This document shows positions 1,925 to 48,105 of a DNA stretch of 64,000 bases, in pieces (positions within the stretch are counted from its first letter, which is position 1; each line of letters opens with the position of its first letter). The position numbers were made by a program, and so were the translations under genes. The notes under the pieces are model-generated. The model searched no databases and was not told where the DNA came from. It saw only the letters and a list, made by a program, of their open reading frames with translations. The stretch comes from Trichobilharzia szidati. Lineage: Eukaryota; Platyhelminthes; Trematoda; Strigeidida; Schistosomatidae. The DNA lies in NCBI GenBank assembly GCA_944472155.2, contig OX235279.1:146032199-146096198 (forward strand). The letters run 5' to 3'.

Positions 1925-2065
1925 GTTTCTACTGTCCACGATTGTAGCTAGTTGATAGTAACTTTTACATACTACTGAATGACTCAGATGAGTAGTTGAT
2001 AGTCAGATTAGAGTGGTCTAAGCATCAGGAGGCTGTTTCGCTCGTTTGGTTACCATCCATGATAT
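1925..2065 (-). repeat. Repeat family D, copy (hammerhead-type)
   Basis: The minus strand reads CCAAACGAGCGAAACAGCC, then GATGCTTAGACCACTC, then a tail with ATCAACTACTCATCTGAG. The GAGC-GAAAC half of a hammerhead core is intact. The expected CUGAUGA box is decayed to ATGGATGG. The tail matches the copy at 45560. Confidence 0.5.
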
Positions 2066-2069
2066 TAGA

Positions 2070-2885
2070 GAAATCTGAATAATTTCGGTTTCCAAAAGGA
2101 AGTGTTATGAGATTTCACTTTCTCTAACTGGATAAATTGTAAATTGTGAATTAATTCGCAGATTGCAAATTTGATTTGATAGCACCGTCATTTGTAAAAG
2201 AAAAGTAATTATTTGTGTGTATGTGTGTCGGTGAGTGGGTGGGTGGGTGTTTGAGTGAACTCAGTGAATGGATATAGACACATGAGATTATAGTTTGAGG
2301 AAGATACTTTACATCGCTGTAGCCGAAGAAAAATAATTCTGTCGATGGATTTATTTCGATTTAAGCAGGAAATGCGAACTCAAAAGTGAACTTAAGCAGA
2401 ATGTAACATCAGTTTAAAAAATTAGTGAGAAGAAAATACCACTATAGAATTACTTCCCTTGATATATATTCGAATAAACCAAAGAGAACATATTGAATAG
2501 GATAAAAACGAAATCATCATATTCCGTTGGTTTTTTCCAAGTGCATACAACTCTCAACAATTTAATATCAACCTAGAGAAAATATTTTAGTGTTGATGGA
2601 TGTTAATTAACTACACGTGCTAAAGCATATACATAGGGTGAACTGAAAGAAGGATTTGCAATCGTATACCTTGGCATATTCTGGGAAACTTACGTCTGAA
2701 AGGGGTATTAGTGTTTAGTAGTGCGACTGCTCACCACCTGTTAGACAGAGATAATGAAATCGATGCGTCCAAGACAATTCAAGACCGCTATGTATAACTA
2801 AAGCGATTGCAACCAAACTGTCGAAACCAAATTTATACACCCAAATGGAAACCTCTATAATCTTGCCTTAATTTTTATTTTGGCA
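2070..2885. other. No supported gene
   Basis: AT-rich, stops in all frames. Contains only a short GTGGGTGGGTGGGTG run near 2237. Confidence 0.5.
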
Positions 2886-2888
2886 AAT

Positions 2889-3775
2889 GCTATTATTATT
2901 CCTTTGGGTTCCGAGTGGAACAGAGAGCTTCAACAACACATCTCTACTTTGCTCGCTTCTCTGTAGTCCTCTTCAGCTGAGTAAACCATTCCCCATATTC
3001 TCTTATCTCCTCCTCGCCACACGATTTCCATCATATCAATCTCGCAACGACAACCCACTAGTCACTTCCCATTGAGGTCCCACTCGAGCGATGGCCTGCG
3101 TTGCCCACGATGTCATTCGACGGCCTCTTCAATGTATGCTCGATCCGTCTCCATTTTCTCCTACATATCTGTTGATCAATCGGCTCTTGCCTGTGAGTTT
3201 GTTCTCAGCCAGAGTTTCTTGTTACTAATTCTGGCTGGCTGGCTGGCCATTTGATCTTCAGTATGGAGACGGCGAAGGCAGCTGCTGATGAAGGTTTGCT
3301 CCAGCCTATCGGAAATCCTTTTCGTTACACGCTGGCCAAGTTGTTGACCCGTATAGAAGGACCGACTTGACATTGGTGTTCAAAATCCGAATCTTGTTCT
3401 CTATGCTGAGGCGGAGTGCAGAAGATTTCCAAATTGGTGTCTGGTTGATGAAGGCGTGTCTTGCCTTTCCGATTCTGGCTGGCTGTCTGGTTTTGACATC
3501 TTCATCCAATTCGAGTACCTGTGGTTGAAACCGTGGTTCCTAAATAAGTGAAGGAAGTAACTTCATTCAAATCTCTCTGGTTGATGGTGATTGGTGCTGA
3601 TTGTTGTTGCTGTTGCTGTTGGTTGGTTATCTTCATCACCTCCATCTTCTGTATGTTCACCTGAAGTCCTGTCTTCGCCGGCTTCTTCTTCAGCCAGTTT
3701 GTTGGTTTTCGCCTGTAATTCTTCTAGTTTGTGTGACATTAGACATAAATCATCCATGCGCGAGATAGAGATTTT
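2889..3775 (-). pseudogene. RTE-type LINE fragment a (RT C-terminal half and 3' end)
   Basis: On the minus strand, broken frames give DDLCLMSHKLEELQAKTNKL near 3750, IWKSSALRLSIENKIRILNT and NVKSVLLYGS near 3400. These are the post-catalytic RT and C-terminal signatures of schistosome RTE LINEs. The 3' end at 2889-2935 has the shared terminal segment (GTTCCACTCGGAACCCAAAG) and an AATAATAAT tail. Several frameshifts and stops are present, and the copy is truncated upstream of the ADD motif. Confidence 0.75.
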
Positions 3776-3779
3776 CTAT

Positions 3780-4195
3780 AATCATCTTATCGGATCGGTT
3801 GTATAATAATCATAATAATGTACAATCAATTTTCAGAAATAAAACTCCAGGTTATTCGTTATTAAGATTTCAATAAAAAAGTGCACAGTCGGGGTGAATA
3901 GAGTAGTTCAGTGTTTAAATAAATTATGAACTTAGCAGTTTAACGGTACATTTAGTTTTCATGAATAAAAATAAACACTCACCAACTGGTATTTATGTCC
4001 CTAAACATATTAGTAAAAATAATCATGAGTTAATGACCTTTATTTGTTGTAATTAACTAATTACTTAATAAAAGTATATGATTAGTTTGTTTTTCTTTGT
4101 CACAGTATTTGCCTATCGCGATAATTTATAAAAATACACAGGATCCGTAGTTTACTTTTTATCCTTCGTTCAAGGTCGATAAGTGAATTCATTTA
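3780..4195. other. No supported gene
   Basis: AT-rich spacer with no coherent frame or repeat I recognise. Confidence 0.5.
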
Positions 4196-4197
4196 AA

Positions 4198-4335
4198 CCT
4201 CATTTTGTTTTATTGCTGTGCTTTCTAAGTGGAATATAGGGCTTCAAGCTTGAGCTTTGCTGTGACAGTAACAGCGAAGTTTTTTCATTAGGTAGGTGGG
4301 GGTTTCCTGCCGCACGCCCAAGCAACCTTCCCTGA
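4198..4335 (-). repeat. SINE family B, 3' part
   Basis: The minus strand ends CTCAAGCTTGAAGCCCTATA then TTCCACTTAGAAAGCACAGC, the family B tail seen complete at 49912-50140. The tRNA-like head is missing. It lies directly beside the 3' end of RTE copy b, which carries the same terminal segment. Confidence 0.55.
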
Positions 4336-4346
4336 TTATTGAACTC

Positions 4347-5560: not shown

Positions 5561-6015
5561 GATGATCTGCGTGGTTGGTGAGGATTCTACTCTTGATCCA
5601 CTGATGAACTCATCTGGATACAGATTATACTGTATATCAATTGACAGTCTGTTTCAAATAGTTTTTTATACGTGCTATGCTGTTGTAAGGACAACTGCGG
5701 ACACATGAAAGCTTCGTTGACTAGTATTCATGAAATGAGATTGGAAGAAGTTAAAATCCCTCAGTCAGTTATGCTGGAATTCCAGTCAGATCGACTTATC
5801 ATTTTATCTCGCTGACTAATATCTAAAGTTATTGTGAAAAAGGAGCGAAATACGAGACTTGTCTACTTTTTACTGGAAAGACAATTTACCATGCTCAGCT
5901 CACTCTAGATCACTCAGTAAAATTCTCTATCTATTAGTGATTACTATTCCATAAAGCGACTTCCTTGAGGTGTTGAGGAGCAACAGTCAGAACGTATTTG
6001 TAGCATGTTTTGAAA
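5561..6015. other. No supported gene
   Basis: No coherent frame. Spacer between RTE copy b and a tRNA-headed SINE. Confidence 0.5.
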
Positions 6016-6235
6016 TGTACGTCGGTGGCACAGTGGTTACGACTCCGCCGACCATGCACATGGTCTGGGGTTCGATCCCCTGCCGACGCACACCTGATAT
6101 CTATGGTTGGCCTGCAAAATTTGGACTACCGATATCACATACTAAAAATTCCATACCTGTACCAGGAAAATAGGGTGTGGAATCAAGCTGTAGTCAAAAA
6201 TAAAAAAATAAAATTGTTCACAGAAGCATTGGTGT
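6016..6235 (+). repeat. tRNA-headed SINE (family B head, different tail)
   Basis: The head reads GTCGGTGGCACAGTGGTTAC (pol III A-box-like TGGCACAGTGG), then GGTCTGGGGTTCGATCCCCT (B box GGTTCGATCCC) and GCCGACGCAC. This is nearly the head of the copy at 49912. The tail (ACCTGATATCTATGGTTGGC onward, ending in AAAATAAAAAAATAAA) is unlike the family B tail, so two SINE types share one head. Short frames here are spurious. Confidence 0.65.
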
Positions 6236-7119: not shown

Positions 7120-7235
7120 GGTAACATGGGTGGGAACATCATCACTCACTGAGAAATGCAGGTACATCTAGCTGATGAGTCCCAAATAGGATGAAATGCG
7201 CATCCTGGATTCCACTGCTAGTCACTATCCACCAA
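7120..7235 (+). mobile_element. S-malpha-like SINE (5'-truncated)
   Basis: Contains the complete hammerhead domain, then TTCCACTGCTAGTCACTATC, as in the second copy at 47690-48105. The pol III-type head is missing. Confidence 0.7.
7166..7210 (+). ncRNA. Hammerhead ribozyme, S-malpha type, intact core
   Basis: Self-cleaving RNA fold. Stem I pairs AUCUAG (7166-7171) with CUGGAU (7205-7210), 6 bp with one G-U. The core boxes are CUGAUGA (7172-7178) and GAAA (7193-7196). Stem II is GUCC/GGAU closing a CAAAUA loop. Stem III is the minimal AUG-CG-CAU (7196-7203). Predicted cleavage falls after C7204. All invariant core positions are present. The base of stem II is G-U instead of the usual G-C, which should weaken activity. 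The very short stem III fits the schistosome satellite hammerheads, which may act as dimers. Confidence 0.82.
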
Positions 7236-10140: not shown

Positions 10141-10305
10141 TGCGATTTTATCCTTTTTTCGAAGGTACGTGACTCATTTTCGTGGTGCACTTTGAACCCA
10201 GGAATTTCCGCACTAAGGGTACACAGATAGTTAATCATCAATTCAGTGTGTCTGGTAATTGGAAATATAAATAATCAATTCCAAGTGTGATCATGAAATG
10301 ACTTC
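10141..10305. other. No supported gene
   Basis: Spacer; nothing recognised. Confidence 0.4.
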
Positions 10306-10309
10306 GGTT

Positions 10310-10500
10310 ATGAACCTATTGATAACCAACAGGAAATACTGGACAGCCGCTTCGTCCTATCTTGAGACTCCCCAGCAGTACGCATCCATGACCCCATCTG
10401 AGATCACGAGGCGAGCCAGTTGATCATTCAGCCACTGGTATGGGATCCAATGGCGCATGAATTCTAACTTTCGGGCAATACTGCCTGGTTTTCAGTGATC
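10310..10500 (-). repeat. SINE family A (hammerhead-like), copy
   Basis: The minus strand has the family A order: a 5' part (TAGAATTCATGCGCCATTGG), GGATCCCATACCAGTGGCTG (A box region), GCGTACTGCTGGGGAGTCTC, GATAGGACGAAGCGGCTGTC, then CAGTATTTCCTG. The hammerhead boxes are decayed (CUGGGGA, GAAG). Confidence 0.6.
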
Positions 10501-11320: not shown

Positions 11321-11623
11321 TTTTTGTTGCTTCAGTTCACATTTATTCAAAATTGGCTATGAAAATGTCGGCTGAGTAGAGTTTTCCGATGATATTGCAT
11401 AGTCACTTCATCGATTCACCCGTAGACTTCATTTTTAAGTGTTTGCAGCTGAAGGAAAGCTGTGAAATAAAATGCCTTCCATTTTAACGCGTAAATATTT
11501 CTCCTGCATGCTTAGTTCTGTAGATCATCTTCACAATGTGTCAGAAATTGTGTAATCCATCTATACAGATGAATAATTAAAGTATTTCCTTTAAGTAATA
11601 ACTCTCTATGTACTTTAGTGATT

Positions 11624-11756
11624 TAGGGTCCTGGTGGTTGAGTGGTCTATGAGCTCTCCCAGTAACCTGAAGGTCCTGTGCTCGAACCCCGGTGCGTGCA
11701 TACTAATAAAGTGTCCTAAACTAGAACGAAAAAGCTGTCCAGTACTCCCTCCCTAG
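11624..11756 (+). repeat. SINE family A (hammerhead-like), copy
   Basis: GGGTCCTGGTGGTTGAGTGG (A box region), GGTCCTGTGCTCGAACCCCG (B box), then AGTGTCCTAAACTAGAACGA, AAAAGCTGTCCAGTACTCCC. The hammerhead half-core reads ACGAAAAAGCTGTC. The CUGAUGA box is now CTAATAA. Confidence 0.68.
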
Positions 11757-11762
11757 TTCTAT

Positions 11763-11955
11763 ACACCATAGGTTCAGTGGTAGAGTGCTTGCCGGCCTTG
11801 CATACGGTCCAGAGTTCGACTCCTGGCCAATAGACTACTAAGCCTGGCTTAGATGGTAGTAAAGTTGGGTATGAAACTAGAGACCCCACTGAAACTTCAG
11901 AACTCAAGCTTGAATCCTGATGTTCCACTTGGAACTCAAAGAAATAAAAAAACAA
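11763..11955 (+). repeat. SINE family B, near-complete copy
   Basis: The tRNA-like head TAGGTTCAGTGGTAGAGTGC and GAGTTCGACTCCTGG (B box) is followed by GCCTGGCTTAGATGGTAGTA, GACCCCACTGAAACTTCAGA, and the tail GCTTGAATCCTGATGTTCCA with CTTGGAACTCAAAGAAATAA. The tail is the segment shared with RTE LINE 3' ends. It follows a family A SINE with almost no gap. Confidence 0.7.
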
Positions 11956-13654: not shown

Positions 13655-13770
13655 GGACTTGCTATCGGCTAAGCGAGGTTTAGGAGGAGTTTGTCCGCCG
13701 GGAATCTAACCCTGGATCACATGTGTGGTTGGAGAGTATCCTACCGTTAAACAACCTACTCAATGTTCGG
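13655..13770 (-). repeat. SINE family B head, copy
   Basis: The minus strand reads GGATACTCTCCAACCACACA, TGTGATCCAGGGTTAGATTC (B box decayed), CCGGCGGACAAACTCC and CTTAGCCGATAGCAAG, matching the head and middle of family B. Confidence 0.5.
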
Positions 13771-13794
13771 AAAACCGAGGGATAGTGGAGATCT

Positions 13795-13905
13795 CTTTCA
13801 TCCTAGCTTTGGACTCGTCAATAGTTTGCATCCATCGGGGTTCGAACGCAGGACCTTCTGGTTACAAGGTGAGCTTGTAGATCATCCAGCTAGCCGGACC
13901 ATGTT
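13795..13905 (-). repeat. SINE family A (hammerhead-like), copy
   Basis: The minus strand carries AGCTGGATGATCTACAAGCT, CCTTGTAACCAGAAGGTCCT, GCGTTCGAACCCCGATG (B box), then TATTGACGAGTCCAAAGCTA and GGATGAAAGAG. The hammerhead boxes are nearly kept (UUGACGA, GAAAG). The 3' tail is lost. Confidence 0.62.
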
Positions 13906-13909
13906 TCAC

Positions 13910-14740
13910 TGCACAGAATTAATAGATTTTGACCGATAAAAAGTGGTTATCATCTGGTGATCGGTTCGCGTCGATCAATCGGAGTCTTACAAGAGGTCGA
14001 CTGTGACATTAGTATATATATATTCATATATATATCCGTGATAAAGTTTTTAATTTCATCAATGAATAATGCTAGTAGAAATCTCTTTGTTGTTTTATCT
14101 TTCTGATTAATACCGTTGAGCTTGAAATAATAATCAAAGCAGCCTGACAAACAATGAACTGACTGAACTGATTTCATCAAGTAATCAGTACTACACAGAA
14201 TCCTTCGATGTTAAAGGGGATTACCACTAGTCAGAATTACTCTTATGGTCAGTGGGAATTGATTCACTTGATATTTACACAGCAAAGGTTGAAAATCGAA
14301 AAGGGAGAATTGATGTTTCACTGTCATCCTCTCCCGTTTTTTGAATGATGATACCAGCAAAACTTTTGTGTGATTTGCACAACATTATTCTGAAATTACA
14401 GCTTTCCAGCTTTCAGAGATGCTCACCTGACAGATTTGATTTTCTACGCGAAATAAGTGAGGAAAAAACAACAACAGCAATGACAAAAAAACTTCATACC
14501 CTTGACTGAATTTTGTACAGAGAAATAACAATCAGGAAAAAGACTTTCAGGCATAAAATATGTCAGCCCACATTATTTGTATCCCATTGATACTAATTTC
14601 GTTTGAAAGCATTGCTTTCTTTTTGATTTTTTTCGAGCATAGAGCTGACAATAGCTTTATTGCTGATATTTAGAATAAAACAGCCTACTATCATTTTATA
14701 AATACATAATTGAGGGAAATATGTGGTCTGATTCGCGTCG
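13910..14740. other. No supported gene
   Basis: No coherent frame. Includes poly-A/T runs. Confidence 0.5.
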
Positions 14741-14830
14741 AGGGTAGCTGCTACCGCTGGAATCTAGGATGTGCATTTCTTTCTGTTTGGGACCCATTAG
14801 CTGGATATACCTATATTCTCTGTGAATGAC
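14740..14830 (-). repeat. S-malpha-like hammerhead, degenerate copy
   Basis: The minus strand reads CTAATGG (14794-14800, from CTGATGA), GTCCCAAACAGAAAGAAATG, CACATCCTAGATTCCAGCGG. Two core positions are changed (G5 to A, A9 to G), which should abolish cleavage. GAAA and the CAUC cleavage context remain. Confidence 0.65.
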
Positions 14831-15865
14831 ACTCAAATCTTGAATTCATCGTCTCAAACGCACTATTAGTCACCATCAACCAATATAAAATCAAGCTAAT
14901 CCCTAGACATCGTTTAAGTGTCTGCACTAGGCACCAGAATGTCAGAGGAGACCGAAATTTCCTGTCTAACATAATCAATCAAGTGGAAATTTTTCCAGTT
15001 TTTACAATTCATCAGTAAGACCAAAAAGAAAGTGAATGGACTGAGCTGGAGAGTTACAAAGGCTTAATTTATTGATGACTGACTACAGGATAGACTTCCA
15101 GGAGTTGAGGTGGGAAGTCGTGATTGGTGGGATTCGTTGATACAATTGGATGACAATAGAGAGAGAGATATATATCTAATGAACTGACAACAGTAGGAAT
15201 TCAATATCTACTGGATTTCTACTCAGCAACTGAATAGTAATCTGTTCATCTAGTAACCTGATGGTCTTTGATTAGATTTCCGGTGGATAAAACAAGCGTC
15301 CTGAATGGTTTTGATTTTTTCTCTCAACCTACACTAGTTGATGATAGAATCTACTACGAAACTAACTGTCCAGTTCGAACTTTTCAGGAAATTCTATATG
15401 AATAAATTTTGTTAGCCTATTCGATAAATAAGAAATTTGGAAGAAGGTTGCGTCAAGGACCAAAATCACTCAGTCAATGTTTTGACCGATACTAAGACCT
15501 ATCAAATATTTCAGTATTACAACGTAAACCACAGTCGTAACAATGTCCCTGCACGTGAAGTATGACAGAAGGTGAACTGTTGGTAAGAGCTTCTACTGCC
15601 TTAATTTACACTTCAAACTATTACGTAGTAATAATATCATCTAATGTATATATATATTTATATATTATATATAATACAGAAAGGTTATAGAAGACAGAAA
15701 TCAATCAACAGACTAAATATAGATCAAAAATCGTTTAGCAGGCACCATTTAAAAAAAAATAAGATGAACAGACATGCTAAATATAGATATTCATATCAAG
15801 ATGGAATTAAGGTGATATTAGAACAAAACTAGGGGCATATAACAGATAATTACTAATGATCAAGG
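14831..15865. other. No supported gene; trace of family A near 15250-15330
   Basis: At 15250-15300, AGTAACCTGATGGTCTTTGA and TTTCCGGTGGATAAAAC resemble the family A head around its B box, weakly. The rest is AT-rich without a gene. Confidence 0.4.
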
Positions 15866-15867
15866 AG

Positions 15868-16005
15868 TGGTGGAAAGCTGTTTCGTCTTCTTTTGGGGCT
15901 CTTTATCAGTGCGTTCCATTAGCATCACGAGGGATCGATCTCACACATGTATTCAGCGAGGTCAGCCTGACAACCATCTAGTCTTTGGGTTGAAATTCAT
16001 CGACT
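15868..16005 (-). repeat. SINE family A (hammerhead-like), copy
   Basis: The minus strand has the B-box-like GTGTGAGATCGATCCCTCGT, then GCACTGATAAAGAGCCCCAA, AAGAAGACGAAACAGCTTTC. The boxes are CUGAUAA and GAAAC, one change from consensus. Confidence 0.6.
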
Positions 16006-16009
16006 TGTG

Positions 16010-17330
16010 AATTCTAGTTTATGTCCATTCACTGTATAGCGTTGACGCCAACCAATGCCATCGATGGGTATCCACTCCAACCTGACCATCTCATCAGAAC
16101 TTCAGGACATCTATTCAGTAGCCACTAGTGGGCTTTTCAGATATTTCTTTTTGTTGGGAGCACTAGATGTTCATTTTGTTCTAGTTTGGAACTCTTCATC
16201 AGTGTGTAGGATGAGAGAGGTGCTTATTACTTCATTAAGTCTCAGTGATTCTGTGACTGGTATCTACTGGTGACAGAACCTACACTGAAGTTGGTCACAA
16301 CCCTTATAAAACATCTTCCTTAAGGAGAAACAGGAAATTGTCAAATTGGAATTAGTGATTTTTTTCTCTCTATTCTTAATGTTGAGGCCTTGAAAAAATG
16401 GAACTCTCAAGTCATAAACTAGTCACATTTTGGTCTGCACGTTTTTGGTGATTTCTAACAACACTGTCAGTCACATTCTTTGTATTGATTAATTAAATAC
16501 AGTGACATTTAAGTGGGATCAGTCATTTCAGGATTGTTTTGTTCTTTCACTGAAAATAACAATAATAATAACAATTAAAAGTCAGTTTTAAGGTAATTTA
16601 TCGTGTGATTGTGCGCATCTTCATTTTCAATTTTCAGTCATTTATAAACCATCCAACATTGAAAGTGTTCTTTAAAAAAGATAAAGAACACCTACAGATG
16701 GCATTTCAGTCATCGTGTTCAGTTAAAGCTGAAGGCTGCTTGCGACTGTACGTTTCTATCATAAAAATAATTGTCTATCAACAAAATCTGTGCTATGAAT
16801 ATTTCATTCATACATTTGCATGAATGATCGTATTTGTCTTTTGAGCGATTTCATTGGATAATTGTGTTTCGGTGATAAGTTTATTGATTAGGCGTGCATT
16901 GAGCAAATTCTTTCAGTCATGTTTGTAATTTGGTCACCAAGTTAGCTGAGTAATAACGTCTGTGACTGTAATACTGGGTGACATGGATTTGAATATCCAA
17001 CTGAGCGCTAGTTCCATAGAGGTTAATGATACAGTGCACAATGTCCAATCGTAAAATGAACAAATCAGAACTGACCTACGTAAAATAACGCCCACTATGT
17101 TATCGATCATGATTACAGAATGATTGACCAATCCTTGATGGCATTTTGAATTATATATTATTATTGTGTAAAATATACTTTGTGGCTCGCATCGCAGTGT
17201 GTTCTCGTTTAAGTAGTACATGCTGAAGAGCAGACAGGTAGCTATTTTATGATATTGCTGACGTCATCAAGCGGTATTCATGATAAACGCATCTTCCTCC
17301 AATTCGACATCCCTATTTCAGTCTTGACGT
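16010..17330. other. No supported gene
   Basis: A splice-acceptor-like TTTTCAATTTTCAG at about 16640 precedes a 60-codon open stretch (SFINHPTLKVFFKKDKEH), but there is no matching donor or second exon. I do not call an exon. Confidence 0.35.
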
Positions 17331-17334: not shown

Positions 17335-17415
17335 CCAAACATAATAGTTAAGGGTGAGCCCTCCTGAGGAGTGCCAGCAAGCACGAAACTTGCATCCTTT
17401 ATTCTCAGCCAATTA
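17335..17415 (+). repeat. Repeat family C, hammerhead core copy
   Basis: GAGCCCTCCTGAGGAGTGCC and AGCAAGCACGAAACTTGCAT. The boxes CUGAGGA and GAAAC enclose a perfect GUGC/GCAC stem with a CAGCAA loop. Position 7 (G) is a permitted variant. Stem I is not evident, so activity is doubtful. Confidence 0.6.
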
Positions 17416-20139: not shown

Positions 20140-20240
20140 AAGAGCTGATCACGGATTGATATCAGTTAGAGAACCATTGAAAACCAGGGAGTACTGGACA
20201 GCTGCTGTTTCATCCTGTTACAGGATGGAGTTTCCTGCAG
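20140..20240 (-). repeat. SINE family A tail, inverted partner
   Basis: 20158-20216 is the exact reverse complement of 20465-20523 (59 of 59). The match extends outward to about 80 bases with few mismatches. It contains the family A tail (CCAGTACTCCCTGGTTTTCA in the opposite sense) and the GAAACAGCAGCTGTC box. Confidence 0.8.
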
Positions 20241-20541
20241 TTCTAGTGAGAAGTCGTGACCAGTGAGGTCCAATTAGATGTCACGTGTGTGGATGGATTT
20301 CCCACCAACGACAATGGCTGGGGTCGCGCTAAAATCACGAATTGGTAGAAGTTAGAATTCATGAGCCATTGAATCGGGTCCCAGTGGCTGAATGGTATAC
20401 GAGCTTGCCTTGTAACCGGAAGGTCGAATCCAAGTGGGTACGTATTGCCGATGATTCCCAAACTAGGATGAAACAGCAGCTGTCCAGTACTCCCTGGTTT
20501 TCAATGGTTCTCTAACTGATATCAATCCATGATCAACTCTT
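20230..20541 (+). repeat. SINE family A, near-complete copy
   Basis: The 5' part has TCTAGTGAGAAGTCGTGACC, TCGCGCTAAAATCACGAATT and GTTAGAATTCATGAGCC. The head follows at 20376 (GGGTCCCAGTGGCTGAATGG, A box; AAGGTCGAATCCAAG, weak B box). Then come the hammerhead-like GCCGATGATTCCCAAACTAG, GATGAAACAGCAGCTGTCC and the tail AGTACTCCCTGGTTTTCAAT. This defines the family order: flank, tRNA-like head, hammerhead boxes, tail. Confidence 0.75.
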
Positions 20542-24599: not shown

Positions 24600-24800
24600 A
24601 CACTCAGTGTATCCACTATGATCTTACAAGAGGCTGACTGGTGACCGGACAACCCTCGGAAGTGTCTCTGACCACAGTATAGTGAGACCCAGTTCAAATC
24701 ACCGGTGGGATATCACTTCTTTTGGTGTAACAGATACGCTTTGCGGACGAGTGCTAGTCAGCAGGAGACCTAGCTCCATGGTTAAATAAGGATGGCATCC
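24600..24800 (+). repeat. Repeat family C with tRNA-like head and hammerhead remnant
   Basis: A B-box-like GAGACCCAGTTCAAATCACC (about 24686) is followed by TTTGCGGACGAGTGCTAGTC and AGCAGGAGACC. This is a hammerhead core with CGGACGA for CUGACGA and GAGAC for GAAAC around a GUGC...GCAG stem. Confidence 0.5.
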
Positions 24801-26379: not shown

Positions 26380-26640
26380 GTCACTAGTCTAGTCCTTTGT
26401 GGTGTTGACTGAGTTACATCGTTCAATCCCAGTTGACTCACTATCGCGATGCACTTGGACATAATGTTAGATGGTTACAAGGGGTCGGTATGAAGGTCTG
26501 GACCCAAGATCTAGGAGAATCTCCAAGGTCAGATCAGTTCCTTCAACATTTTTGATATGCCATGCTGTTGAGCTGTTCTAGCAAGCACGAAACCTGAAGG
26601 TATGGCTCCCTGCCAATTGCCTCCAACTGTCGTATATATA
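26380..26640 (+). repeat. Repeat family C, copy, followed by (TA)n
   Basis: A B-box-like CGTTCAATCCCAGTTG near 26412. Further on, CATGCTGTTGAGCTGTTCTA and GCAAGCACGAAACCTGAAGG keep the GCAC-GAAAC half of the family C hammerhead core, while the first box is CUGUUGA. A (TA)n run at 26635-26657 closes it. Confidence 0.5.
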
Positions 26641-27301: not shown

Positions 27302-27491
27302 CCATTAAGCCACTGGGACCCAATCCAATGGCCACCGCATGAATTCTAACTTCTGCCAACTCACAATATAGCGCGACCACTTCGCAATGTCTTCGATGAG
27401 TAACTGTCCTCACCTTCAACCTTCTACACCTTACTGATCACGGCTTCCTACTAGAACCCCAGACGACTGCCTGAATAGGGCCAGTCGCCAG
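27302..27491 (-). repeat. SINE family A 5' part, left arm of a 190-bp inverted repeat
   Basis: Reads in antisense from the A-box region (CCATTAAGCCACTGGGACCC) into the family A 5' flank (TCACAATATAGCGCGACCAC). By hand count about 172 of 190 bases pair with 27561-27750, with no indels needed. Confidence 0.85.
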
Positions 27492-27560
27492 TGAGCATCA
27501 GATCAGTTTTCAGGTATTGGTTTGTGTGGGTTTTGTTTGATTGACTGGAGGATTTCATCA

Positions 27561-27900
27561 CTAGCGATTGGCTCTATTCAGGCAGTCGTCTGGGATTCTA
27601 GTAGGAAGCTGTGACCAGTAGGGTGCAGCAGGTTGAAGGTGAGGACAGTTACTCATCGAAGACATTGCGAAGTGGTCGCGCTATATTGTGAGTTGGCAGA
27701 AGCTAGAATTCATAGGGTTACCACTGGATCGGGTCCCAACGGCTTAATGGTCTATTAGGTAGCTCGCCTTGTAACCAGAACGTCCTGGGTTCGAAATCCG
27801 TGGTGTGTGTGCGTACTGATGAAGAGTCACAAACTAGGATGAAACAGCTATCCAGTACTCTCAGGTTCTCTAACTTATGTCAGCTTACGATGAAATCTAC
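27561..27900 (+). repeat. SINE family A, near-complete copy and right arm of inverted repeat
   Basis: The 5' flank is 27561-27730. The head starts at 27731 (GGGTCCCAACGGCTTAATGG) and the B box is GTCCTGGGTTCGAAATCC. The hammerhead boxes are CUGAUGA (27816-27822) and GAAA (27841-27844) around GUCACAAACUAGGAU, then ACAGCTATC and the tail CAGTACTCTCAGGTTCTCTA. Both core boxes are perfect here. However, GUACUG, which overlaps the first box, is complementary to CAGUAC after the cleavage context, so the usual stem I register conflicts with the core. Confidence 0.78.
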
Positions 27901-28174: not shown

Positions 28175-29482
28175 GTGCCAGCAGCTTGGAAGGACATTAA
28201 AATTGTACCTATTCCTAAGTCGTCTACTGCGACAAGTTTTAAATTCAGACCCATTGCTATTACTTCCCCTTTTCTAAAAGCTATGGAAAAGTTGCTCTTA
28301 CTTAATCTTCAACCTTCACTTAAAGCCTTTAATGATCCCAAACAATTCGCCTACAAACATAGTAGAAGTACTTTGGACGCAGCTGCAGTCCTGTATCATA
28401 ACATTGTCTCCAGCTTAGACAAGGGGGCTAAATTTGTTCGCTGCACCTTTCTAGATTATACATCTGCTTTCGACTCAGTACCTAGAGACATTTTACTAAA
28501 CAAGCTTGCTGAAACTGAAACTGAATGTTGGGTAGTCAAATGGCTCCATTCTTATTTCTCAGAAAGAAAGCAATACACTGTATGTCAGGGAAAGCCGTCC
28601 ACTTCACTGCTTACTGAGGCTGGTGTCCCTCAAGGCGCTGTCCTTTCTCCTTTTCTGTTCTCTTTCTTCTTGCATGACTTGCCTCACTCCGATGAAATGA
28701 ACTTTGTTAAGTATGCCGATGATCTAACTATCTCAATGTCTGTTAACTCTCAACTTGACTGTATTAAGATTAACAATTTTCTATCAGAAATTAGCAAATG
28801 GTCTTCGTCTAACGGCCTTAAACTTAATCCTTCCAAATGTCAGACTGTCAATTTCAGTTTCCGATGTAAACGAAAGTTAAATGAAGCCGTTGGTTCCTAT
28901 GACCCTTGCAAAATCGATGATACCGATATAGAAAGCAAGTCTGAAGTTAAGTATCTTGGATTAGTTCTCTCTTCTGACCTATCTTGGTCTTCTCATGTCT
29001 TAGCGATTTCTAAAAGAATATTTCTTCTGACTTTTTACATTAAGAAGTTGAGGCACTCAGGCATAACCCAACCACTCCTCTTACAGTTTGTCAACTCGTG
29101 TATTTTACCTATTCTTCTTTACTGTTCACCATTATTCTTTCCTGGATTGCTAAAAAAGGACTATGTCATACTTCATAGAACTCTGAACACTGTCAGTAGG
29201 ACGAGTGGTATCCCATTGGGCCATATCGTTGGCATTGTCACCGATAGGCATTTGATGTCATGCAACAGATTCGCTAGAGGAATTTTGTCTGACTCTGAGT
29301 ACCCACTCTACCAGCAGCTCCTACCTTGTGTCTCCTCAGGTAAAACAAGAAGTCTTTTCAGAAGACTTTATGCACGTACGTCTAAGTATAAAAATTCCAC
29401 TATACCATATTTAGCACGTACTCTATGTGATGAAGATAGTGTCAGAAATGAACTAACTAACCTTCTTAGCACCACTAAATAG
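28175..29482 (+). CDS. Reverse transcriptase of a CR1/Jockey-type LINE (5'-truncated, frame open)
   Basis: A 435-residue frame without stops. It copies LINE RNA into target DNA by target-primed reverse transcription. The fingers contain FRPIAITSPFLKAMEKLLL (residues 24-42). Motif A is FLDYTSAFDSVP (92-103, catalytic Asp 94). Motif B is GVPQGAVLSPFLF (150-162). Motif C is KYADDLT (179-185) with both catalytic Asp present. After that come LNPSKCQTVNFS, VKYLGLVLSSDLSWSSHV, a thumb and a C-terminal tail ending LTNLLSTTK. All RT catalytic motifs survive, but the endonuclease and N-terminal RT are missing. The start is simply where homology begins (no ATG; a GTG-like codon), so it is not an independent gene. 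Two other copies (18103, 21430) align to it. Its intact frame suggests it is the youngest of the three. Confidence 0.88.
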   Translation: MPAAWKDIKIVPIPKSSTATSFKFRPIAITSPFLKAMEKLLLLNLQPSLKAFNDPKQFAYKHSRSTLDAAAVLYHNIVSSLDKGAKFVRCTFLDYTSAFDSVPRDILLNKLAETETECWVVKWLHSYFSERKQYTVCQGKPSTSLLTEAGVPQGAVLSPFLFSFFLHDLPHSDEMNFVKYADDLTISMSVNSQLDCIKINNFLSEISKWSSSNGLKLNPSKCQTVNFSFRCKRKLNEAVGSYDPCKIDDTDIESKSEVKYLGLVLSSDLSWSSHVLAISKRIFLLTFYIKKLRHSGITQPLLLQFVNSCILPILLYCSPLFFPGLLKKDYVILHRTLNTVSRTSGIPLGHIVGIVTDRHLMSCNRFARGILSDSEYPLYQQLLPCVSSGKTRSLFRRLYARTSKYKNSTIPYLARTLCDEDSVRNELTNLLSTTK

Positions 29483-34083: not shown

Positions 34084-34975
34084 TTAGCTTCTGCAGGTGG
34101 ATTCCTAGTGCTTCAGCTGCATGTAGAAGACGAACTCGTAGAGCAAAATTAAGGTTAGTAGGAATGCGATAAATCATTTTAAGTACTGTATTAACGTCAA
34201 CCTTATGCTCACTATCCACAAGGTATGCCAAAATAGAGCTACGAATAGATCTTGTTTGTCTCTTGCTTAACCATGCTGGATGATATTCGGAAAGATGATG
34301 ATGAACCTAACTAATTGTACGCCCGATGTAGCTGGCTCCGCAGTTGCGGTCAAACTGGTAGAGACACATAGAGGAGGCAAATTTAGGTAGTTTATCCTTA
34401 TTTCTCAAACGTAGAACATGGGTGGTAGTGAAGAGACAGCGTACCTCTACCGTATAATAAGCTCTTTTAACTGCATTCTTCAGGCGCTGTGTTATTATTT
34501 CGCTGTTGTCACCGGGGAACTGCAGTTTTATGAACAGTGGGTTTTTTGGAACTGTTACTATACTGACTTTCCTAGGTGCTGAATTCATATTTTTCTCGGT
34601 GAATTTATCTGGATAGCGATTTTTTCTAAGTAATTCTCTAATAATCTTAAGCTCCTCATTGAGGCAGTCGTCTGAACAGATTGACCTGGCTCTATGAACC
34701 TGGCACTTTATATTTCAAAGGTACGAAACTCAAAAATGAGTGTACTGACCTGTTGTTGTAGGTTTCCTATACACACTCCTTATTAGTGTGCCATCTTCTT
34801 TCCTTGCCATGATGACGTCTAGGAATGAGATACTATCATTACTTTCTTCCTCTATGGTTAAGTTTATTGCTGAATATGCATCATTAAACTTGTCAAGGAC
34901 ATATGTTTTCTGATACCTTAACAGATTAGCGGTAGTGAAAACCACATAGGGATACAACGATAAATGGTTCAACAC
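34084..34975 (-). pseudogene. Penelope-like element, RT thumb plus GIY-YIG nuclease
   Basis: The minus strand from 34975 has SISFLDVIMARKEDGTLI and RSVYRKPTTTGQYTHF (the Penelope RT signature after the palm). A frame break follows, then LLRKNRYPDKFTEKN, VSIVTVPKNPLFIKLQFPG, NKDKLPKFASSMCLYQFDRN and CGASYIGRTIS. A single in-frame TAG (34305-34307) then interrupts VHHHLSEYHPAWLSKRQTRS, and the frame continues to SILAYLVDSEHKVDVNTVLK and a stop near 34085. The YIGRT motif, the downstream H/E-rich part and the Cys ligand are those of a GIY-YIG nuclease. The RT palm is missing. Confidence 0.8.
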
Positions 34976-36074: not shown

Positions 36075-36310
36075 TTCATTCCTTTATATTTCAAGTGGAA
36101 CATAGAGCTTCAAGCTAGAGGCTTGAAGTTTCGGTAGAAGTGGTGTTTATTTTTACGAGATGAGGTTGCTAGCCTCATGCCCAACCTTTCCTCTTTACCA
36201 GTTTTATTACTGGCTTGACGAGGTAAAGGAGTGCGTTGGTGGCCAGGGATCGAACCCCGGACCACCTGCGTGGTTGGCGAACATTCTACTGCTGTGCCAC
36301 TAACTCACGC
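36075..36310 (-). repeat. SINE family B, near-complete copy
   Basis: The minus strand head is TTAGTGGCACAGCAGTAGAA with CCGGGGTTCGATCCCTGGCC (B box). Then come CTCCTTTACCTCGTCAAGCC, AGAGGAAAGGTTGGGCATGA, GGCTAGCAACCTCATCTCGT, AACTTCAAGCCTCTAG and the tail GCTTGAAGCTCTATGTTCCA, CTTGAAATATAAAGG. It is nearly collinear with 49912-50140. Confidence 0.78.
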
Positions 36311-40029: not shown

Positions 40030-40170
40030 TGGACGTAATCGGTAGGAAGCTTTGGATTTACGTTTCGTGCTTGTTTGCATTCATCAGCAAGGCGTATCTG
40101 CAACCTTGAAGAGACTCATGTCCCTTCTGAGATACGAACCCCCGTCAGCAAACAGAGGACTAAACACATC
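40030..40170 (-). repeat. Repeat family C with tRNA-like B box and hammerhead core
   Basis: Minus strand: GACGGGGGTTCGTATCTCAG (B-box-like), then CUGAUGA (40081-40087), AUGCAAACAAGCAC and GAAA (40063-40066), then CGTAAATCC. Both core boxes are perfect. Stem II is UGC/GCA with an A-C mismatch at its base. Stem III would be AC-GUAA-AU with one mismatch. Confidence 0.62.
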
Positions 40171-40214: not shown

Positions 40215-40400
40215 AAATGCGTGAATTAATTCTCTGATGAGCTCAGCTCCAAACGAGTGAAACGACCTTCCGGTGCTTAGATCATTTCGTTCTGGCTAGC
40301 AAGCGCTGCTGGTTGGTGTGAACGGTATACAAATGTTCATCTCAATCAGTATAGTGTCAGTATACAAATAATATTCTCAGTAATGTTCTCCGATCTTCTC
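40215..40400 (+). repeat. Repeat family D with intact hammerhead boxes
   Basis: CUGAUGA (40234-40240), stem II GCUC (40241-40244) with GAGU (40255-40258), GAAA (40259-40262), then CGACCTTCCGGTGCTTAGAT. The tail CGGTATACAAATGTTCATCT matches 386-530. A matching stem I is not obvious, so cleavage in this copy is uncertain. Confidence 0.6.
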
Positions 40401-42659: not shown

Positions 42660-43500
42660 TTTAACTACCCTTCAGTCTTTTCCAGACTAATCTTTATGTC
42701 GAGGAAGCATAACTCCCTAAATGTATGTGCAATACAAACAGAGTGAAATTTCTTTTCTTTTCTTTATTCATGGTTAACCTTCTTTTTTTTTTAAATATAG
42801 TTTCTTAGCTATTACGTAATACACTTCGAAAAGAAAAAGTATGAGAAGTTGAAGAGATTTATGACTTGCTAGTCAGGAATAATCCGTGCTTCCTATTTGA
42901 ACAGTTAAGTCATGTGCGGACTGAATAATTTCTGAAAAACTGTCTAGACATTGGATAATTAGCAATAATTACCACTTTCATTTAACTTTCCAACTTTCTT
43001 CTTATTGGCAAAAATAAAACATTATTGTTTTCTTAAGAATGATTCATCGCGAATTGCAGTTAGAAGTAAAATATTTAACTTCAATACATCCAGATTTCTG
43101 CTAGATTGCTGTGTTCTCAATGTGAAGCTCCGTCAGATTCCTTCTTAAGGTTCACAAGTTCAGTGGATGTATGGATGACGACTATCAGTTTTGAAGCGAT
43201 GTAAGATATTCAAGTATTTCGGTGACTAGCAGCGAAATCAAGGATGCGAATTTCCTCCTGTTTGAGACTCGTCATCTGGATGTGCCTGCACTTCAAGTTA
43301 AATCCCCAGACATCGTCGAAGCACCTGCCCAAACAGCTGACATGTCAACAGACGTCAAACACTTCAGTCCAATCAATCAGTAGGAAAATTCAAACTAAAT
43401 TAAATAAACAGTAAATTACCTAAAGTTTTAATGTTCATGTATTTATGAGCTAAAATTACTGAAAATGTTTTAAAACAAGACGTTCAACTGTTATTTTTCA
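42660..43500. other. No supported gene
   Basis: AT-rich; no coherent frame. Confidence 0.45.
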
Positions 43501-43504: not shown

Positions 43505-43735
43505 TGAACGCGGGTTGATATCAGTTTGAAAACCAATAAAAATCAAGAAGTACTGGACAACCCACTGTTCTGTCCTAGGTTGGGACTCATCGCTAGTACA
43601 CACACACACACACACACCACATATGTTCGAACCCAGCACTGTCCGGTTACAAGTCAAGCTCGCAGATAATTCAACCACTGGGATTCGACTTAATTACAAG
43701 CTTATGAATCCTAACGTCTACTAATTCGTGTAACT
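43505..43735 (-). repeat. SINE family A (hammerhead-like), copy
   Basis: Minus strand: CCCAGTGGTTGAATTATCTG (A box), GTGCTGGGTTCGAACATATG (B box), a (GT)n run, GCGATGAGTCCCAACCTAGG, ACAGAACAGTGGGTTGTCCA, GTACTTCTTGATTTTTATTG. The boxes are GCGAUGA and AGAAC. The stem GUCC-CAACCUA-GGAC is perfect. Confidence 0.72.
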
Positions 43736-43744
43736 GTCTCTTTC

Positions 43745-44150: not shown

Positions 44151-44154
44151 CTCT

Positions 44155-44560: not shown

Positions 44561-44569
44561 GCCTGAACT

Positions 44570-45555
44570 CATCTCAGTACGTAGATGATATTTTTCCAGC
44601 TTATTCGAAGAAAAAGAAAATTATGATGAAATCCTTAGCTTATTAAATTTCTTCGATTGATTTAAGCATTTATTTGTGCTATAAAGTAATCAATATCATC
44701 ACATGAACATGTAGACAGTTTGTCTGTTCTTCTAAGACAAAAAAAAAATACTGAACAGGATAAAACAATGCAGAGAATAAACAAAAGGATGATAAAGAAA
44801 CAGTCTTTTGTTTTATTTCTCCTCCTACTCATAGAATAAATATTGACAGGAATAGTTTATTTTGTCAAGCATGATCTTTGGATTGTATGCATGTGTGTGT
44901 GTGTGTATTTATGTGTTTTCGTGCCTGTCTTTCTCATCTCAGAAAGTAAAACAAAAAGAGTAAAGAGTTCTTCTGTATATTGTACTTAATAATATTGAAA
45001 TAATGCTCATGTTAGTTCTACAATGATCACAATAATATTAGAAAATGGAAAGTTAAACAATATAAAAGAAGACAGAATGCGCAAGTATAAAATACAGATT
45101 GCGAGTGTGTGTATATGTGTGTGAGCGTGAGTGCGTACATGCGTGCGTACCTATTCCTGCGCATGTGAGTTCGCTAGACAAATGAAGAGAGCGAGAGAAC
45201 GAGAGAGAGAGAGAGAAAGAGGAAAAGAGGATGGTTTTTCCTTTCTAATGAAAATGGGTGGTTAAGGAAGGGAAAAGTGTGTGTGTGTGTCTCTTTGTCT
45301 TGAAGAATTCCATATACTTCTAGTTTTGTATCTGTCAGCTTAATATTGAATGCAGTAGATATTTATAGAGCGAAATCAAGCGAAATTCCAGTGCATCGAT
45401 TTTTGATTTAAAATTTTATGAATATGGGTAAATGGTGCATGAATAGACGTCACTATTTAATGATTTGAATGAAACAATACCATGTGAGAAATATTAAAAA
45501 GTCAGCTGCAGTCAACTAACGTTCTCGCGTGTTGACGCAAGAGGCAATCATTAAA
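44570..45555. other. No supported gene; GT and GA simple repeats
   Basis: Contains (GT)n near 44888 and 45275 and (GA)n at 45190-45225. Confidence 0.55.
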
Positions 45556-45559
45556 GGTG

Positions 45560-45790
45560 TGATGATACTATCATTCTATATGCTACTGATTGATTCATAT
45601 GAGTAGTGTCTGCTAGTTATGTTGAAGCGATCTAAACACTATACGGCCATCTCGCTCGTTTGACACCTAATTCGTCAGCGGTGTTCCTCGCTTGACTCAG
45701 CTCACAAAGCTGAGTTCTGGCCAGACACTTGGGGGCGAACCGGCAAACTGGTTGATGTTCAGCTCTCTCCAGCTGCTCATGCTAGTCTGT
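45560..45790 (-). repeat. Repeat family D with tRNA-like head and hammerhead boxes
   Basis: The minus strand runs TTTGCCGGTTCGCCCCCAAG (B-box-like), an ACTCAGCTTTGTGAGCTGAG hairpin, CUGACGA (45672-45678), AUUAGGUGUCAAACGAGC, GAGA (45650-45653) and GTGTTTAGATCGCTTC. It ends in the family D tail. This copy shows that family D also has a pol III-type head upstream of the hammerhead. Confidence 0.6.
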
Positions 45791-45794
45791 AGCA

Positions 45795-46280
45795 TACACC
45801 ATCATGATTGTCACTTATGGTATCAGGCAGACAATATATTGTGATGTGAATGTTTTTTTTTTCTATTTCCAACGGAAATTGTGGTCAGTTTTTGCAGCGA
45901 AGTGCGAATTTCGTTTGTCAAAACTAATTCAGTCGGTTCCATGACGTTAACTGCTGGTCATAATTATTTGCAAAGAAGAAAAGAAAAGTACTGCCTGGTA
46001 TTCGTCGTATTTTGGGCAAAAGATCCATTGAAATTGATAATATTTGATGTACTATGAAGTAATACAGTAATAACACACACAGAATGTTTATTTATGCACC
46101 CAAAAACCTGTCACTATTCGTTTGCTTTTCAGTGAGAAGACAAACACTATACTGCTGTGAAGAGAATACTAGTTAACTTCTCAATTTCTTCATCAGTGTA
46201 TACAATTCCATTCCTTTCAGTGTTATACGTTCTGCTTATTCATAAGTCTTGAGTGCAGAGACGCTTTTCATTTCGTCATA
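45795..46280. other. No supported gene
   Basis: AT-rich spacer. Confidence 0.45.
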
Positions 46281-46284
46281 CAAC

Positions 46285-46400
46285 GAGGGCATTCAAAGAA
46301 CCACTGAAATCCAGGGGTTACTAGACAGGTTTTCTGTACTGCGACTCTTCAACAATGAGGCACCATGATGGATCAAAGTACGCCGCTTCAGGTGGGTGTG
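46285..46400 (-). repeat. SINE family A, 3' part
   Basis: Minus strand: GTTGAAGAGTCGCAGTACAG, AAAACCTGTCTAGTAACCCC, TGGATTTCAGTGGTTCTTTG. This is the family A order from the stem II region to the tail. Confidence 0.58.
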
Positions 46401-46639
46401 TTGACTATTCAGTAACTGACTTGCTATCCAGTGATATTCGAATGCTAATTTCTTTTAACTGTGCTCACACACGCTTTGGTAAACCTCACAGTTTGTGACT
46501 TCTTATTATTAGAACAGAATAAAATCCATCTTGTAGTCATGGGATATCATTTTATTTCGCTGGGTGACGCTGGAAATAGTTATAAAAGAATATATTGATT
46601 TTTCCACTTCAAACTCCATATACTTATGCACGTCGGCTG

Positions 46640-46860
46640 TTCAAATTGGAACATAGGATTTGATTCTTGAGCTTTGAAGTTTTAGTAACGGTGGTATTGT
46701 TTCCTCATGCAGCAGGATCGCTAGCTAGCCCTACTGCCAACTTTCTCTGTTTAACAAGCTTACTTTAGGCTAGTTTTGACTCTTTAAAGTACGTCGTCCC
46801 GGAACCAAACCCGCACCACTTCTGAGATTGTCAAGCATCTTACCACTGAACCTCTGACTC
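46640..46860 (-). repeat. SINE family B, near-complete decayed copy
   Basis: Minus strand: GTCAGAGGTTCAGTGGTAAG (A box), GGTGCGGGTTTGGTTCCGGG (B box), AGAGAAAGTTGGCAGTAGGG, GCTAGCGATCCTGC and a tail CAAGAATCAAATCCTATGTT, CCAATTTGAACAGC. Confidence 0.65.
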
Positions 46861-46864
46861 ACAA

Positions 46865-47680
46865 TAATGAAGTGTAATCTACCGTTAAGTATGCCTTATC
46901 CCCACTATTACCAGTCTGTTGTCCACTGGCTTACATCTTTCCGACTTTTGTGTTGTGTTTCTTTTGTGTTTTGTGGCTGATTCAAACAACAGTTGTAATA
47001 ATGCAAAGACAGCATGTAAACGAATATTTAACTTAAAGGATTTAGCGCAGAAATAATCAGTTTCTTATTAGAAGAGTATGCTTTTCTACTTGAGCAGAAA
47101 AATAAGTATTCAAATGAAATGTTTGACTTTCTTCTCCTTTCTATTTTTTTTAACTCCCTCCAGATTCATTGATTGTTTTAATGTATTGAAAAATAAGCGG
47201 GAATATGAATAAAAGTGAGTAGGAGGAGGGATTTTCAAACTTTTATCGTATAACTTACGAAAGCATGAAAAGACCATAGTCACAGTATGTAAGCGTAGAT
47301 AAATCCATATGGATTTATATGTCATTTAAAATATGCAGAAAACGATAGAATTCATGTTGGATAACTAGGGAAAAAACTGGGGAGATCAATTTAGTTTTAT
47401 GTTTCATTGATTTGTACGTAAAAGTATTTCTCTTTTAATGAGAAAGAAAGTTTTTTCTATCAATTTTGTTTTTTAAATGGACGTCGGAAAGTCCATTTTG
47501 TAAAATAAGGAGGATGTTTTTCATTATTTTTAAAAGTTTTAACAAAGTTTAATTTTGTCAATTGATTTTAACAAAATAAAATAATGGCTGTATTTGAGTT
47601 CAGCCTACTTCAACATTTGTGTTCGCCTCCATCTCATTTCAATACCATTTGGGTTAAAATGTAGAAATGTCGCTTATTGA
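46865..47680. other. No supported gene
   Basis: AT-rich; no gene. Confidence 0.45.
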
Positions 47681-47689
47681 CTTAAGCGG

Positions 47690-48105
47690 TCAACGTCCAG
47701 TCGAGTTGTACAGGGTTCGAATCTTGATCTACCTGTTTCAATCTGGGCAACTAGGAGTTATAATTAGCTTTCACACAACCAGTAGGGATAACCACCTGGC
47801 ACATGAACAATCTGTTAAGGGGAAGCATTACGGGTGGCGAACATAGCTGTACATGTATTATAAACAACACAGATGACATTCGCTTAACCTTGGCCTCTGG
47901 ATTAGTAAATCGGCTACGAAACCCAGGGGGATACCAGGAGTAGTCTGCTGCATAACTCTTTGGCATATAAAACAATGAGTCCTGGGTTTGAGTGTCAATG
48001 AGAACTCAATCAATCACCAAGGATTTCAAATACACCCAGCTGACGAATCCCGAATAGAGCGAAATGCATATCCTGGATTCCACTACTAATAGCCATCCAC
48101 TAAAG
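47690..48105 (+). mobile_element. S-malpha-like SINE, near-complete copy
   Basis: A B-box-like ACAGGGTTCGAATCTTGATC (47709) and a second GAGTCCTGGGTTTGAGTGTC (47977) lie upstream of the hammerhead domain at 48034-48078. The unit ends in ATTCCACTACTAATAGCCAT. Much longer on the 5' side than the copy at 7120. Confidence 0.6.
48034..48078 (+). ncRNA. Hammerhead ribozyme, S-malpha type, stem II damaged
   Basis: Core CUGACGA (48040-48046; position 7 C is allowed) and GAAA (48061-48064) are intact. Stem III is AUG-CA-UAU and the cleavage context is AUAUC before CUGGAU. Stem I keeps 4 bp. Stem II reads AUCCCGAAUAGAGC, where two of four pairs are mismatched. Little or no activity is expected. Confidence 0.72.

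Follow-up and report, generated by a model that had tools for sequence, protein, structure and literature searches.

The stretch analysed here, referred to as the window, comprises 64,000 nucleotides (nt) from the genome of the bird schistosome Trichobilharzia szidati (C8:146032199-146096198; genome size 1.11 Gb). It contains several protein-coding frames and copies of four families of short repeats, designated A, C, D and S, the last being Smalpha-like. A first-pass annotation had proposed that all four families converged on one design, with an RNA polymerase III (pol III)-type head followed by the hammerhead boxes CUGANGA and GAAAC. Our analysis indicates that A, S, C and D carry a predicted type I hammerhead fold, which would be self-cleaving. 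The observation was real and largely right, and is partly confirmed, though of a kind already known.

Identification of hammerheads in the window

Rfam identified four type I hammerheads in the window above the Hammerhead_1 cut-off of 34 bits (7166-7210 and 48034-48078 on the plus strand, 43281-43237 and 10381-10336 on the minus strand), and at an expectation value (E) below 0.01 two further sites were found (14806-14762, minus, and 27813-27858, plus). Three of the four S copies in the window passed the cut-off. A family-blind scan, which uses hammerhead geometry alone and takes its expectation from 100 dinucleotide shuffles, produced 11 matches with a score above 26, compared with 0.77 expected, and eight above 28, compared with 0.15 expected. 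Ten of the 11 top matches were copies of A, S or C, and the eleventh was the D copy at 45678. At a score above 24, 15 matches were seen and 2.8 were expected; the four between 24 and 26 were D 40234 (24.6), C 24744 (24.5) and two unrelated sites (57959, 14103; 25.5, 25.8). Genome-wide, the pattern CTGANGAN{4,30}GAAAC occurred 102,435 times (50,807 + 51,628), as against 23,040 (11,646 + 11,394) for the reversed pattern. A chance motif was rejected on the strength of these two excesses, over shuffles and over the reversed control.

In its third self-trained round, a profile search of the window returned 20 places for family A at E < 1e-4, including some that match the head or the tail only. Profile searches also returned four C, four D and at least four S places, with profiles that include the very copies they recover, and a fifth S place at 52581-52419 (E 2e-9). 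An exact first core was retained in six of the 25 window copies that could be registered, and in none of the 16 belonging to family A. The S copy at 7166-7210 was the only one of the 25 with exact cores and every stem paired. In viral and prokaryotic contigs, searches found nothing for A and C, nor for A/S-like cores; two matches to an 18-base D motif were probably due to chance.

The sites picked out by the first-pass annotation fared differently. The S hammerhead at 7172-7196 was borne out, with cores and stems intact. A hammerhead was also present at 27816-27844 in family A, but in another register: a CTGATGA core at 27816 was rejected, as both Rfam (E 0.0056, under the cut-off) and the family alignment place a mutated core, ATGAAGA, three bases downstream at 27819, directly 5′ of stem II GTCA...GGAT. 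The C hammerhead at 40063-40087 (minus) was recovered by a structure model built from A and S only (the A+S model), at 26.1 bits and E 5.5e-5, compared with 11.7 bits and E 0.022 without base pairs. For D at 40234-40262 (plus), the CTGATGA reading agrees with the point at which most genome D alignments begin, but the copy was missed by the A+S model and its stem I is unpaired (2/6). The D copy at 45650-45678 (minus) was detected by that model, but has GAGAT instead of GAAAC and no good stem II.

Fold and pairing of the stems

Intact cores, with CUGANGA and GAAA both exact, and 14 of 14 pairs were found in genome copies of three families: A L011, S L041 and C L012. Pairing across families was examined in a set of one A, one S, one C and four D copies, well-preserved picks that favour pairing, in which 93.9% of cells were paired. 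The four D copies were taken from about 15 D places outside the window; all have exact CTGATGA, and two further exact copies, L054 and L028, were omitted. The proposal survived examination of its cores and stems. CUGANGA was present in all seven representatives, and compensatory changes in stems I-III were seen between families, with 11 of 14 pairs changed on both sides. GAAA was exact in four of seven (A, S, C and D_L055); D_L051 and D_L058 have GGAA and D_L057 has GAAG. The set contained 23 double-change cells, compared with 6.8 after shuffling (reached in 0 of 500 shuffles) and 1-4 in slid controls. In a second set, the 12 better preserved of the 25 registered window copies, 32 double-change cells were counted and 14.3 were expected from shuffling.

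The A+S model provides a test that is free of the bias towards well-preserved copies. With it, the score was 47.2 bits for C in L012 and 18.9 bits for D in L028. In the window, D 45678 reached 17.8 bits (E 0.017) and was unlisted at E ≤ 5 when pairs were removed; C 17364 was weak, at 12.9 bits, and D 40234 was not listed at E ≤ 5. Rfam Hammerhead_1 scored the array form of A at 54.1 bits and the C copy in L013 at 43.3 bits, both over the cut-off. The geometry from stem I to stem III is nearly alike in A, C and S, with one loop base more in A.

Intact arrays and a changed core in family A

The A half running from stem I to GAAAC with an intact core occurred in 2,797 genome copies, compared with none for the control. 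On contig C1, 64 exact cores spaced 394 bp apart form an A array that is preceded by an inverted copy; the 394-bp units of this array were 100% identical in the 4 kb inspected. Taking the commonest base at each position in A gives 14 of 14 pairs.

Dispersed copies differed from the array at the core. Among 17 unselected A copies with 80% or more identity to the array unit, one had exact CUGANGA and 11 had A as the first core base; six of the 17 are the arms of three inverted pairs and hence not independent. The tally covered copies from the window and from L031-L050 with identity of at least 0.80 and no more than four gaps in the ribozyme, motif-chosen loci being left out, and the share of the form with a changed first core base (GTACTGATGANGAGTCCCAAACTAGGACGAAAC) is an estimate from these 17 sampled copies. 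Among the 16 registered window copies the same base was split (A in six, C in five, T in four and G in one). Change of the first core base to A would be expected to abolish hammerhead activity. Given its frequency among dispersed copies, cutting is probably not required in every amplifying lineage, and catalysis seems dispensable for part of the amplification. As far as our searches go, the spread of A copies with this change is new. The same change at the same position was seen in family S, in six of 20 rows (L031-L050 and window).

Family D

A genome-wide D search reported 42 matches from 40 scored of 791 candidates. Of 41 non-self alignments, 39 start at query position 7-16, and CTGATGA starts at position 10. 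The view that the shared D block starts only at CCAAACGAGC was thus overturned for most genome copies, although it still holds for the window copies 398 and 2049 and for several copies in L014, L036, L038 and L050. CTGATGA was exact in five of eight fetched D loci and GAAA in seven of ten aligned rows; both occurred together in L054, L055, L028 and 40234. The common D sequence shows GCTC/GAGC, ACGGCCGT and ACACC/GGTGT. Copies L051 and L058 have 14 of 14 pairs but GGAA in place of GAAA, and L055, L057 and L028 have 11 of 14 pairs. Judged by the sequence its copies have in common, D is thus a hammerhead family, although none of the copies inspected is perfect.

Relationship between the families

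Family C in L012 consists of two identical 198-bp direct stretches, 345 bp apart, whose hammerhead has 14 of 14 pairs, and CUGANGA was present in five of six unselected C copies at least 75% like L012. The best Rfam match of these L012 copies (652-725 and 997-1070) was Hammerhead_HH9, at 46.2 bits, under the cut-off of 52 bits for that family; the match takes in the outer part of stem I with its internal loop, and the likeness is confined to the ribozyme. By eye, family S seems to share the outer stem GCAG...CTGC.

The claim that different families converged did not hold as stated. C 40087 and S 48040 aligned at the same offsets over 163 nt, flanks included, with 61% identity (E 3.7e-6 in a small and 1.8e-5 in a larger comparison). 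S copies were also recovered over 118-177 nt when a full C sequence served as query. Since C and S are homologous beyond the ribozyme, common descent at least partly explains their likeness. Family A shares the stem II of S and almost its loop, and A and S gave one in-register match, over the ribozyme. When the ribozyme was masked, S, C and A (D was not tried) showed no cross-match between their head and tail profiles in the window, and D gave no in-register cross-family match in the set compared. Pairwise head and tail tests gave five C-S pairs at p < 0.02 among 182, plus one D-A pair (uncorrected). The in-register comparison yielded five cross-family matches in one real set, compared with five in ten sets of 22 random stretches. 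An independent origin of A and D was neither shown nor excluded.

Pol III-type heads

The proposed pol III-type head upstream of the ribozyme was found in two of the families. A L011, with its ribozyme intact, has a clear B box, GGGTTCGAATCCC, and C L012 has a B box, GGGTTCGAATCTC, and an A box, TAGCTCAGTGG; we take these motifs to be the boxes of pol III heads. The boxes, of the kind found in tRNA-derived short interspersed nuclear elements (SINEs), were weak or missing in S and D. When the 130 nt upstream of each window copy were scored for a B box with at least 8 of 10 places matching, 4 of 16 A, 1 of 3 C, 1 of 2 D and 0 of 4 S copies had one, compared with 3.8% for a random place.

Tandem and head-to-head layout

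Layout was examined in an unselected sample of 20 stretches of 10 kb taken at even steps along contig C1 (200 kb). At E ≤ 0.05 the A+S model found 51 hammerheads, a density for C1 of about one every 3.9 kb. Among neighbours no more than 450 bp apart there were 10 divergent, one convergent and three same-strand pairs, as against 2.2, 2.2 and 4.4 for random placement, and none of 2000 trials reached 10 divergent pairs. The arms were inverted copies in all 10 divergent pairs, with 64-94% identity. In the L041 pair, the only one so clear, the arms are 94% alike, compared with 0.80-0.82 to the family unit, and so probably arose together or were converted.

Beyond the array, 35 exact intact A copies, all on C1, were among the first 100 places listed; places in genome-wide motif searches were read from the first 100 and counts are whole. 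These 35 formed four divergent, no convergent and four same-strand close pairs, the last all at 394 bp. Direct units following an inverted leader were found at C1:1661067-1686210 and C1:23300932-23302308, and D head-to-head pairs at two places on C4 and one in L014. Direct or tandem order thus occurs in the 394-bp arrays of A and the C repeat, and head-to-head order in A, S and D.

In the window itself, the inverted pairs at 20140-20541 and 27302-27750 involve partial copies; in the former, the 3′ part of the A copy recurs inverted at 20140-20216 with 97% identity. C 40087 and D 40234 lie head to head with arms that are not alike. The minus-strand pair at 15843-16208 resembles a decayed tandem dimer of A.

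Other features of the window

The positions of the family copies are collected in the table below. A minus-strand open frame at 55659-56846 has 100% identity to a T. szidati protein over 96% of its length. The GIY-YIG frame fragment at 1075-1491 has 91% identity over 84% to a Trichobilharzia regenti 'GIY-YIG domain-containing protein', and we take its class to be Penelope-like. A second frame, at 34307-34714 (minus), looks to us like a Penelope C-terminus. Pfam gave no match for either frame. Other reverse-transcriptase frames are present, with RVT_1 at 28175-29479 (Pfam).

Two 54-nt inverted arms (692-745 and 1481-1534, 91% alike) each lie 3′ of a D copy (398, plus, and 2049, minus) and close to the GIY-YIG fragment; family D may have a connection with a Penelope element. 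A tRNA-Gly-like head is present in repeats at 49915-49988, 5990-6100, 36244-36303 and 11771-11839, some of which have related downstream sequence. The first is called a tRNA by ARAGORN (anticodon ACC), and no hammerhead was seen by eye in the stretches inspected. They are a possible control SINE for comparison of orientation. A further repeat, CTGAAGAAGTTCGG...CCGAACGAAAC, occurs at L006 1500 (plus) together with an inverted copy, on both strands of one 3-kb locus, and may be one more stem-loop family.

Table. Hammerhead repeat copies and associated features in the window
Feature	Position	Strand	Basis
Family S (Smalpha-like) hammerhead, core CTGATGA at 7172	7166..7210	+	Rfam Hammerhead_1 60.6 bits
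Family S hammerhead, first core intact, stems II and III damaged	48034..48078	+	Rfam 45.7 bits
Family S hammerhead, core ATGACGA	43237..43281	-	Rfam 39.9 bits
Family S hammerhead, core CTAATGG	14762..14806	-	Rfam 31.7 bits, under cut-off 34
Family A copy, tRNA-like head with B box, core ATGAAGA at 27819	27705..27893	+	nhmmer; Rfam 28.8 bits; registered alignment
Family A copy, core CCGATGA at 20448	20354..20535	+	Profile search; registered alignment
Family A copy, core CTGGGGA	10288..10465	-	Rfam 35.9 bits; profile search
Family A copy, core ATAAAGT	11619..11763	+	Profile search, A+S model, register
Family A copy, core TTGACGA	13743..13920	-	Profile search, A+S model, register
Family A copy, core GCGATGA	43505..43712	-	Profile search, A+S model, register
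Family A copy, core CCAAGGA	58529..58714	-	Profile search, A+S model, register
Two direct-order A hammerheads 293 nt apart, A 5′ module in between	15843..16208	-	Profile search, A+S model
Family C hammerhead, core CTGATGA at 40087, stem I GCCTTG/CAAAGC	40049..40093	-	A+S model 26.1 bits, E 5.5e-5; C relatives
Family C hammerhead, decayed core CGGACGA	24738..24782	+	Profile search, blind scan, C query
Family C hammerhead, core CTGAGGA, stems I and III decayed	17358..17402	+	Profile, blind scan; A+S model 12.9 bits, E 0.52
Family C copy, core CTGTTGA	26517..26638	+	Profile search, C query
Family D copy, CTGATGA GCTC...GAGT GAAAC	40234..40350	+	Genome-wide D matches; alignment
Family D copy, core CTGACGA, stem III ATGG/CCGT, stem I ACACCG/TAGTGT, second core GAGA	45569..45699	-	A+S model 17.8 bits, E 0.017
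Family D copy, CTGANGA not recognisable	398..519	+	Sequence comparison
Family D copy, CTGANGA not recognisable	1953..2049	-	Sequence comparison
Inverted head-to-head arms bearing A 5′ module, 27302-27433 / 27619-27750, 91%	27302..27750	.	Arm comparison
GIY-YIG frame fragment, Penelope-like	1075..1491	-	T. regenti protein match

Possible mechanism and alternatives

We consider it fairly likely that the four families represent short non-autonomous retroelements of Trichobilharzia, probably T. szidati, each built on a type I hammerhead, whose cycle would run via a Penelope-type enzyme. The tRNA-like pol III head of A and C, just upstream of the ribozyme, would drive transcription over tandem units; the hammerhead would cut the concatemer into unit-length RNAs; and a Penelope-type reverse transcriptase would insert these, so that direct units come to lie behind a partial copy in inverted, head-to-head orientation. 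The sequence itself shows the cores, the pairing of the stems, B boxes in A and C, the A arrays, the C repeat and the head-to-head excess; from these we infer the transcription and the cutting. The enzyme is suggested by the likeness of the insertion layout to that of Penelope elements, and the GIY-YIG fragment in the window is in keeping with it. This layout is Penelope-like only, and we do not file the families as Penelope elements.

Several observations weigh against this proposal. In the 12-copy window set, the number of pairs with a double change showed no excess (nine, compared with 7.8 shuffled; 138/500). No covariation was found within the 16 registered A copies (p 0.24, 0.36) or in ten A copies not picked for the model (p 0.88, 0.95), as would be expected of decaying copies, and RNAalifold gave no consensus structure for the 12 copies. 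Such programs cannot fold stem III, which is drawn with no loop; the active form may therefore be a dimer. No inspected D copy has both exact cores and all pairs, and ARAGORN found no tRNA in L011, L012, L013, L020 or L028. Among the window's 18 model hits (E up to 0.017, of 36 listed) there was no divergent pair within 1 kb, with one convergent and three same-strand pairs. A 13-nt flank match, as for a target-site duplication, was seen in one of ten pairs, with 7 nt or none elsewhere. The units of 394 bp (A) and 345 bp (C) are too short to hold a reverse-transcriptase gene, and no sequence link to a particular Penelope element was found.

The families could instead be ordinary tRNA SINEs moved by a long interspersed nuclear element, with the hammerhead as an inherited passenger and the inverted pairs formed later by template switching or palindromic duplication. 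Such a history would fit the tRNA-like heads in A and C, the core mutations among dispersed A copies and the other reverse-transcriptase frames in the window, such as that with RVT_1. It is nonetheless unlikely, as close pairs in A, S and D are mainly head-to-head and seldom tail-to-tail, and direct units stand behind an inverted leader at the two C1 loci given above. That four unrelated repeats gained hammerheads independently, in true convergence, would agree with the masked profiles that do not cross-match and with the isolation of D in the in-register comparison. However, C and S align collinearly from the head through the ribozyme to the tail, A and S have a common stem II and nearly the same loop, and the geometry is close to identical in A, C and S, which makes this origin improbable. 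Slightly more improbable still is amplification at the DNA level only, by unequal exchange, with the RNA fold idle. The homogeneous 64-unit A array is what unequal exchange might produce, but the 35 exact A copies outside it among the first 100 listed are scattered along C1, and stems that differ between families and yet remain complementary need selection on the RNA at some stage.

Comparison with known elements

Several hammerhead repeat families of schistosomes are already published. Hammerheads are carried by Smalpha and Sjalpha; about 38,500 matches to the hammerhead are reported for S. mansoni, as is a relative of Smalpha derived from tRNA-Gln (PMC2770079). Like the present families, Smalpha and Sjalpha are high-copy short repeats with a type I hammerhead, and S has the same stem II and loop (PMC2770079, PMC8490949); A, C and D differ from them in stems and flanks, the genus is another, and arrays with an inverted leader are found here. 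Hammerheads also occur in four W-element families of S. mansoni (W25.2, W26.2, W27.2 and W36.2); of five candidates tested in vitro three cut, these being variants of W25.2 and W36.2 (PMC8490949). Here too a single schistosome has several weakly similar families that each contain a type I hammerhead; the relation of A, C and D to W25-W27 was compared by description only (PMC8490949).

Animal retrozymes not of the long-terminal-repeat type have type I hammerheads in short units of roughly 300 bp, arranged from dimers to long arrays, and platyhelminths are named among their hosts (PMC7229834); the short tandem units of A and C share this arrangement. A pol III head and a head-to-head leader, as found here, are not mentioned in the parts of that source used. 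A low G+C content (below 45-50%) is given there; it is 0.505 in the A unit and 0.484 in the C unit, neither of them below 45%. Penelope elements of Adineta vaga have direct terminal repeats and an inverted, often shorter copy, mainly head to head, and some of them have 8-10 bp duplications (PMC3846280), as in the layout described above; the units here are short and encode no reverse transcriptase or endonuclease. A tandem lizard Penelope element carries a hammerhead, and its core mutants still insert in vitro (PMC11167929).

Literature searches, in which subscription papers were little covered, found no paper combining Trichobilharzia with hammerheads and none joining hammerhead ribozyme, head-to-head and retrotransposon. 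As far as these searches go, the presence of four families in one genome with compensatory stems is new, as is the head-to-head excess and tandem layout of hammerhead repeats. In our judgement these families bear on the role of genomic hammerheads and on the enzyme that moves repeats such as Smalpha. Within a single genome there are four families with ribozymes, arrays that are intact, dispersed copies in which one core position has changed, and a layout pointing to one enzyme class. The need of cutting for spread thereby becomes testable by comparing natural copies.

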